This document shows positions 1,169-40,027 of a DNA stretch of 64,000 nucleotides, one piece after another. Made by a program: the position numbers and the translations under genes. The notes below the pieces were generated by a model, which saw only the letters and a list, made by a program, of their open reading frames with translations, was not told the origin of the DNA and ran no database searches. Source of the DNA: Nannobrachium achirus (Eukaryota > Chordata > Actinopteri > Myctophiformes > Myctophidae); assembly GCA_963921795.1 (NCBI GenBank), contig OY997655.1:11447083-11511082 (forward strand). Direction: 5' to 3'. Position 1 is the stretch's first letter, and each line of letters begins with the position of its first letter.

Positions 1169-1440
1169 GTGTCTGCGTGTGCGCTGGGCCCCGGGCCCCG
1201 TGATGGTGACATAGCGCAGGGGCCTCCTCAGTGACTGCCCTGTGGTGTTGCCGTAGAAAAGAAGGCCTCCTCAGTGTCTGCGTGTGCGCTGGGCCCCGGA
1301 GCCCGTGGTGGTGACATAGCACAGGGGCCTCCTCAGTGTCTGCGTGTGGGGCCCATGGTGGTGACATAGCGCAGGGGCCTCCTCAGTGTCTGCGTGTGCG
1401 CTGGGCCCCGGGGCCCGTGGTGGTGACGTAGAGCAGGGGC
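1169..1440 (-). repeat. tandem array copying the kif19 C terminus and stop
   Basis: Four imperfect copies of a unit of about 50-100 bp containing CAGTGTCTGCGTGTG and TGGTGGTGACATAGCGCAGG (plus-strand reading). The rightmost copy is coding and includes the TGA. The others lie in the presumed 3' UTR. Confidence 0.85.

Positions 1441-40027: not shown

Follow-up and report, generated by a model that had tools for sequence, protein, structure and literature searches.

Minisatellite-like duplications of intron-exon boundaries, affecting both borders, are known in amphioxus as mirages (PMC3087553). In the sections of that report on which we draw, they occur in Adh3 (units of 10-72 bp) and in the globin genes BflGb6 and BflGb9 (150-160 bp), many copies keep the AG or GT, splicing is apparently left undisturbed, and length instability is described (PMC3087553). 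Mirages have also been reported in Adh, troponin C and PGBD5 (PMC3902484). Human segmentally duplicated genes carry minisatellites, on average of 30-bp units repeated four times, some of which lie at exon-intron boundaries (PMC2812944), and the Rogers model of intron gain by tandem duplication involves duplication across AG/GT sites (discussed in PMC3087553). In the sea bream, the growth hormone gene has polymorphic intronic minisatellites; the part of the report available to us leaves unstated whether they span a border (PMC3045353). Our search of the open-access literature, which left subscription papers aside, turned up no description of a teleost with arrays spanning exon-intron borders.

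Here we describe tandem copies of exon-intron borders in kif19 of Nannobrachium achirus, within a window of 64 kb (the whole stretch of DNA analysed), and in other genes of the same genome. The copies span the border, both exon edges are affected, and the degree of decay varies. We consider it likely that these are mirage-like minisatellites, in which exon-intron borders at both exon ends have been tandemly duplicated and are tolerated, and that the donor-only pattern is a feature of kif19 and not the mark of a donor-linked mechanism.

Border arrays in kif19

Using tblastn and splice-site reading, we placed kif19 on the minus strand, with 20 visible coding exons (E1 to E20) running from window position 40027 to 1383. 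The exons join into a single 995-codon frame, with GT and AG at the introns, and their GC content is 63%, against 43% in the introns. This frame is matched by 120 listed fish proteins over 96-100% of its length at 76-87% identity, the KIF19 of Centroberyx gerrardi being the best among the matches listed (87%). Twelve fish KIF19 proteins align along the full length of the product, and the N-terminal ~39 residues were not found within the 64-kb window. The outermost exons and the repeats at exon borders are as follows.

40027-39917, minus strand: exon E1
39802..39962, minus strand: E1 donor array, 36 bp, last copy 41 bp, four donor copies
35200..35296, minus strand: two-copy duplication on the acceptor side of E3, ~47 bp, intron only (by eye)
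34952..35095, minus strand: E3 donor array, 47 bp x3.1, 100% identical (TRF)
23480..24033, minus strand: E6 donor region, three decayed, interrupted copies of exon end plus donor (by eye)
22578..22848, minus strand: E7 donor array, 42 bp x6.5, seven donor copies (TRF)
13951..14135, minus strand: E9 donor array, 43-49 bp x4, diverged (TRF)
12225..12378, minus strand: two-copy duplication on the acceptor side of E11, diverged (by eye, edge-probe score 45)
9347..9518, minus strand: E13 donor array, 28 bp x6.1, 100% identical (TRF)
7796..8329, minus strand: E14 donor array, 48-53 bp x10.3 (TRF)
1510-1383, minus strand: last exon, E20, with the stop codon TGA at 1385-1383
1169..1443, minus strand: last-exon (E20) array, 50-62 bp, containing the stop codon (TRF and reading)

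Tandem copies of the exon-intron border are present at 7 of the 19 kif19 donors, six as clear arrays and one, E6, in decayed form, with its third copy more than 400 bp downstream and an edge-probe score of only 34. Five of the six clear arrays (E1, E3, E9, E13 and E14) have units that start inside the real exon. The E3 unit consists of 33 nt of exon and 14 nt of intron, that of E14 of about 35 nt and 13 nt, and that of E13 of ~25 nt of exon followed by GTA, with AGGT common to both breakpoints. At E1 the unit is made of 34 exon-derived nucleotides plus GT and lacks 12 nt that the real exon has. A weak donor, gttcgt, lies at the far end of this array; it may perhaps be the original E1 donor, in which case the present first donor, gtaaag, would have been created by the duplication. 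The E7 unit starts at about intron position +1 and is nearly all intron with almost no exon, and it was rejected as an exon-derived unit.

The exon codes for residues that other fish conserve, and the simplest reading is therefore that the exon edge gave rise to the copies, rather than the other way round. Array-like inserts at the array junctions were found in none of the 12 aligned fish KIF19 proteins, mostly the longer of the 120 listed. The copies of E3 and E13 are identical, those of E9 and E6 have diverged, and the events therefore probably differ in age. Given unrelated units, differing ages and the origin of five of the six clear arrays in the local exon end, we conclude that a process has acted repeatedly and that the arrays do not belong to one repeat family, as the original prediction held. 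TRF and reading likewise confirm its arrays at seven donors (E1, E3, E6, E7, E9, E13 and E14) and at the stop codon of the last exon. The E20 array contains no donor. The prediction had also named exon 3 as the sole acceptor-side case, which no longer holds: the duplication there (edge-probe score 38, offset 47) is joined by a second two-copy duplication at the E11 acceptor, with a unit of pyrimidine tract, AG and ~12 nt of exon.

Such arrays would begin when a stretch of some 28-80 bp spanning the splice site is duplicated, probably by replication slippage or short-homology repair, as the 3-4 bp shared at the breakpoints of the E3 and E13 arrays would suggest. Thereafter copies would be gained and lost as in other minisatellites. 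The copy of the border that adjoins the exon body would stay in use, that is, the first at donors, the last at acceptors and, in the last exon, the first stop codon, and the remaining copies in the intron or 3' UTR would be tolerated.

TRF reports eight arrays in the 64 kb with a period of at least 25 and at least 2.5 copies, of which six contain a kif19 donor, one the stop codon and one neither. The last of these (55899-56017), 37 bp x3.2 with identical copies, precedes the visible kif19 exons; no coding exon was recognised there. If six arrays were placed at random in the gene, all would overlap a donor with a P of about 1e-6, and with a P of about 2e-10 if placements are limited to coding-safe ones that put the donor in the first unit; both values are post hoc, because the gene was picked for its arrays. 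Edge-probe scores of at least 50 were obtained at 6/19 donors, 0/20 acceptors and 20/600 random intron positions, many of the last falling within the donor arrays. The test also responds to simple GT and CT repeats (at E5, A1 and A13), and we therefore relied on TRF and reading. The one-sidedness of kif19 depends on the count: at least three copies are present at 7/19 donors (with E6) versus 0/20 acceptors (Fisher P 0.003), any duplication at 7/19 versus 2/20 (P 0.065), and TRF gives a donor-to-acceptor ratio of 6:0 (two-sided binomial P 0.03).

Some further features of the gene were noted in passing. Within coding exon E14 there is an in-frame 12-bp tandem duplication (x2.3; 8402-8429). Intron 8 houses a large element (14780-19700) with inverted terminal stretches, ~15.8-14.8 kb mirroring 18.6-19.7 kb by eye, which we take to resemble a Penelope-like retroelement. 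The same 9 bp (CTGCAAGGT) are found across both splice borders of intron 11 (11548-12119), the end of which presumably resembles a LINE tail; this intron looks as if an insertion had turned into an intron. A short inverted-repeat element, in variants of GATCTACAAGCTCACAACG, recurs at ~12540-12600 and 36830-36890, in L020 and at other loci.

Exon edges in other genes of the genome

We compared kif19 with 131 exons of other genes (73 kinesin, 26 dynein and 32 myosin), together with 168,304 non-exon bases. The sample was hand-chosen and covers 73 of 142 matches to PF00225, 26 of 49 to PF12780 and 32 of 147 to PF00063. Ten of the first 30 loci were used (L020-L025, L027-L030); L001-L019 and L026 were discarded for being intronless or broken, at a point when their repeats were already listed. 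The first acceptor arrays were known by the time loci from L051 onward were picked; these came from the match lists, irrespective of their repeats, with the exceptions of L085-L087 and L131-L133, which were fetched for nearby arrays and contribute one exon (L085, no edge array) to the 131. The rows are not all independent, because L047/L085/L133, L048/L070/L086 and L049/L069 are probably one gene each. A simple score, applied without transcripts, served to assign splice sites; where it yielded none, we took the HMM edge instead. The loci left out include repeats that look coding (L004, L014 and L016). We also noted kinesin motor matches without introns (L001-L018), some of them clustered (for three on C9 an open frame of 1677 codons is reported); on C15, a dynein AAA_8 match falls in an open frame of 3873 codons.

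Under strict TRF settings (period at least 20, at least 2.5 copies), 4/131 donors and 4/131 acceptors lie in arrays. Reading, with at least two copies counted, leaves 3/131 donors (L106, L118 and L126), or four with the interrupted copy of L047, and 6/131 acceptors (L047, L048, L049, L065 in decayed form, L069 and L099). The dynein array at the L106 donor (61 bp x7.5; ~48 nt of exon and 13 of intron) is built like those of kif19, and the L047 donor, with a second, interrupted copy of exon end and donor downstream, is comparable to kif19 E6. The donor repeats of L118 and L126 are in myosins; the 69-bp unit of L118 has 2.4 copies and passes the 2.5 threshold only through a poor 34-bp row (55% match). 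The two loci represent the corresponding exon of two myosin genes, with 69- and 72-bp units whose intron parts are unrelated.

On the acceptor side, L069 and L099 mirror kif19, with 7 and 11 acceptor copies by motif count, the working copy being, to judge from the sequence, the last one. TRF reports L069 as 118 bp, but it reads as ~39-bp units; at L099 it stops 26 bp short of the acceptor, although the unit contains the acceptor and ~16 nt of exon. Furthermore, three exons of a kinesin gene (C13:1.464-1.471 Mb), judged by eye to follow one another in coding order, bear acceptor arrays; the gene nearly mirrors kif19. The three arrays are 37 bp x3.1 and 67 bp x2.7 at L047 and at least 14.3 copies of 81 bp at L133, a locus fetched because of L047, where the array runs to the end of the stretch.

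Several arrays were set aside. A 54 bp x2.4 array at L047 starts a few bases inside the intron and was not counted, and the L069 donor array, which starts ~8 bp inside the intron at a donor that had been misplaced automatically, was excluded from the read count. The array at L102 is not exon-derived, and those at L020, L035, L049 (59 bp), L082, L085 and L101 are intronic by eye. Just inside the L069 donor, a 28 bp x21 array is similar to the unit on that exon's acceptor side, which would fit an edge unit having crossed the exon.

It is possible, though we regard it as doubtful, that the edges owe their arrays to pure survivorship, with duplications falling uniformly, exonic ones purged and the edges being what remains, without real enrichment. 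This would be compatible with mirage-like minisatellites and does not exclude them. When any edge overlap is allowed, 8 edge arrays were seen outside kif19 versus 4.48 expected (P 0.085), or 7 or 8 versus 4.45 after misassigned arrays had been moved (P 0.16 or 0.08). Arrays cover 3.1% of edges (4/131 donors, 4/131 acceptors) and 2.6-2.9% of non-exon bases, and arrays away from known edges are common (14 with at least 2.5 copies). However, placements that keep the exon need the edge in the exon-side unit, and on this basis 8 were seen versus 0.78 expected (P 1.7e-6), or 7 or 8 versus 0.70 after correction (P 9e-6 or 8e-7); the kif19 placement value of about 2e-10, post hoc as it is, also argues against pure survivorship. 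The verdict on edge hot spots depends on the null: enrichment is about tenfold (P about 1e-6 to 1e-5) when the edge must lie in the exon-side unit, and not significant (P 0.08-0.16) when any overlap counts. With copies of at least 2 the contrast is weaker (9 seen versus 7.17 or 2.04 expected). No array with a period of at least 20 and at least 2 copies lies wholly inside exons in the 26,306 exon bases sampled. Altogether, arrays are likely to be moderately enriched at exon edges.

A stronger version, which we put forward tentatively, is that exon edges are real minisatellite hot spots because selection keeps the exon-attached border copy intact. This copy would be an undying seed from which decayed arrays regrow; arrays confined to the intron would lose their last good copy and then die. 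The data that bear on this are sparse and mixed. In E14 the match to the exon is highest for the copies closest to it (rho -0.83), in L126 the neighbouring copy is identical, against 82% for those farther away, and in L048 the match is 0.96 and then 0.69. E1 (three values) and L106 lean weakly toward a better match near the exon. No such gradient is found in E9, L069 or L099, and the copies of E3 and E13 are all identical.

The original prediction also linked the cause of the arrays to the donor. A mutational process at 5' splice sites, such as R-loops, polymerase pausing or U1-related events, would fit the fact that all six TRF arrays upstream of the last kif19 exon hold the donor in their first unit, as well as the contrast between donors and acceptors with at least three copies in this gene. 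Elsewhere, however, acceptors are arrayed at least as often as donors (3/131 donors versus 6/131 acceptors, P 0.50; 4 versus 6, P 0.75), and L047, L069, L099 and L133 carry about 3 to 14 acceptor copies; with kif19 included, the counts are 9/150 donors and 6/151 acceptors (P 0.44). The stop-codon array, lacking a donor, also speaks against such a process, which we judge improbable. Because border repeats occur at 3-4 donors versus 6 acceptors, the array process is not donor-specific in the sample. The link to the donor is unsupported as a general rule, since the equality of donors and acceptors that would count against it is what the 131 exons show, although the one-sidedness stands within kif19.

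Compared with the sampled exons, kif19 is an outlier, with arrays at 6/19 donors versus 4/131 by strict TRF (P 0.0003), or 7/19 versus 4/131 when interrupted copies are counted (P 4e-5). A donor bias specific to this gene is conceivable, because the donor-to-acceptor ratio is 6:0 there (TRF) and 3:6 elsewhere (read; Fisher P 0.028).

The extra splice-site copies

The six clear kif19 arrays have 34 listed donor copies, 28 of them not first. Only two of these 28 extra donors would keep the frame at full length (E1 copies 2 and 3, by +12 and +24 codons). The other 26 run into a premature stop codon, and splicing therefore probably uses the first copy.

Selection for spare donors, raised in the original prediction as another cause, would mean that extra donors make splicing more robust, and we consider it highly improbable. 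GT is present in 34/34 listed copies, a point that is partly circular because the copies were located by motifs containing the donor. Yet donor columns vary as others do (6/32 versus 37/160 varying columns among the copies in E7, E9, E14 and L106, P 0.82), even though the motif bias favours conservation. Nor do the first donors of the six arrays prove weak when set against the remaining 13 kif19 donors, E6 among them (P 0.38). Moreover, 26 of the 28 extra donors would truncate the protein, and the stop-codon and acceptor arrays would be left unexplained. An assembly artefact is less probable still: the identity of the copies in E3 and E13 means that copy numbers there may be wrong, but E1, E7, E9 and E14 have non-identical copies, units are unrelated across several independent loci, and the assembly has 1.66 Gb in 564 contigs.

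Comparison with known systems

Mirage-like minisatellites remain our preferred explanation, and the fish arrays resemble amphioxus mirages in several respects. The repeat unit spans the exon-intron border (in E1, E3, E9, E13 and E14 of kif19, only marginally in E7, and in other genes), both 5' and 3' borders are affected (3-4 donors and 6 acceptors among the 131 other exons), and the units of 22-81 bp lie within the reported 10-160 bp. The copies carry splice signals, as do those of mirages, with the reservation that the GT of all 34 kif19 copies was found by donor-containing motifs. Unlike the amphioxus cases, the arrays described here belong to a teleost and occupy seven donors of one gene plus other genes. 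Mirages are documented by RT-PCR, haplotype and somatic-instability data, whereas the fish arrays are known from the sequence of one assembly.

The human variable internal tandem repeats concern recently duplicated primate genes and novel introns (PMC2812944); the fish arrays, by contrast, appear to keep the old borders of conserved exons. They share with the Rogers model the tandem duplication across splice sites, but show no new intron. With the sea bream gene they share the presence of teleost minisatellites in gene introns, where copy number is variable in that species (PMC3045353).

Each array sets near-identical tandem splice sites in natural competition and could serve as a test of spliceosome choice. 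Alternative exons and new introns might arise by way of exon-edge arrays, which could also make genes vary in length. In their anatomy, the fish arrays have the features of mirages and are a teleost variant of them, which extends exon-edge minisatellites from amphioxus to ray-finned fish and indicates that a single gene can hold seven.
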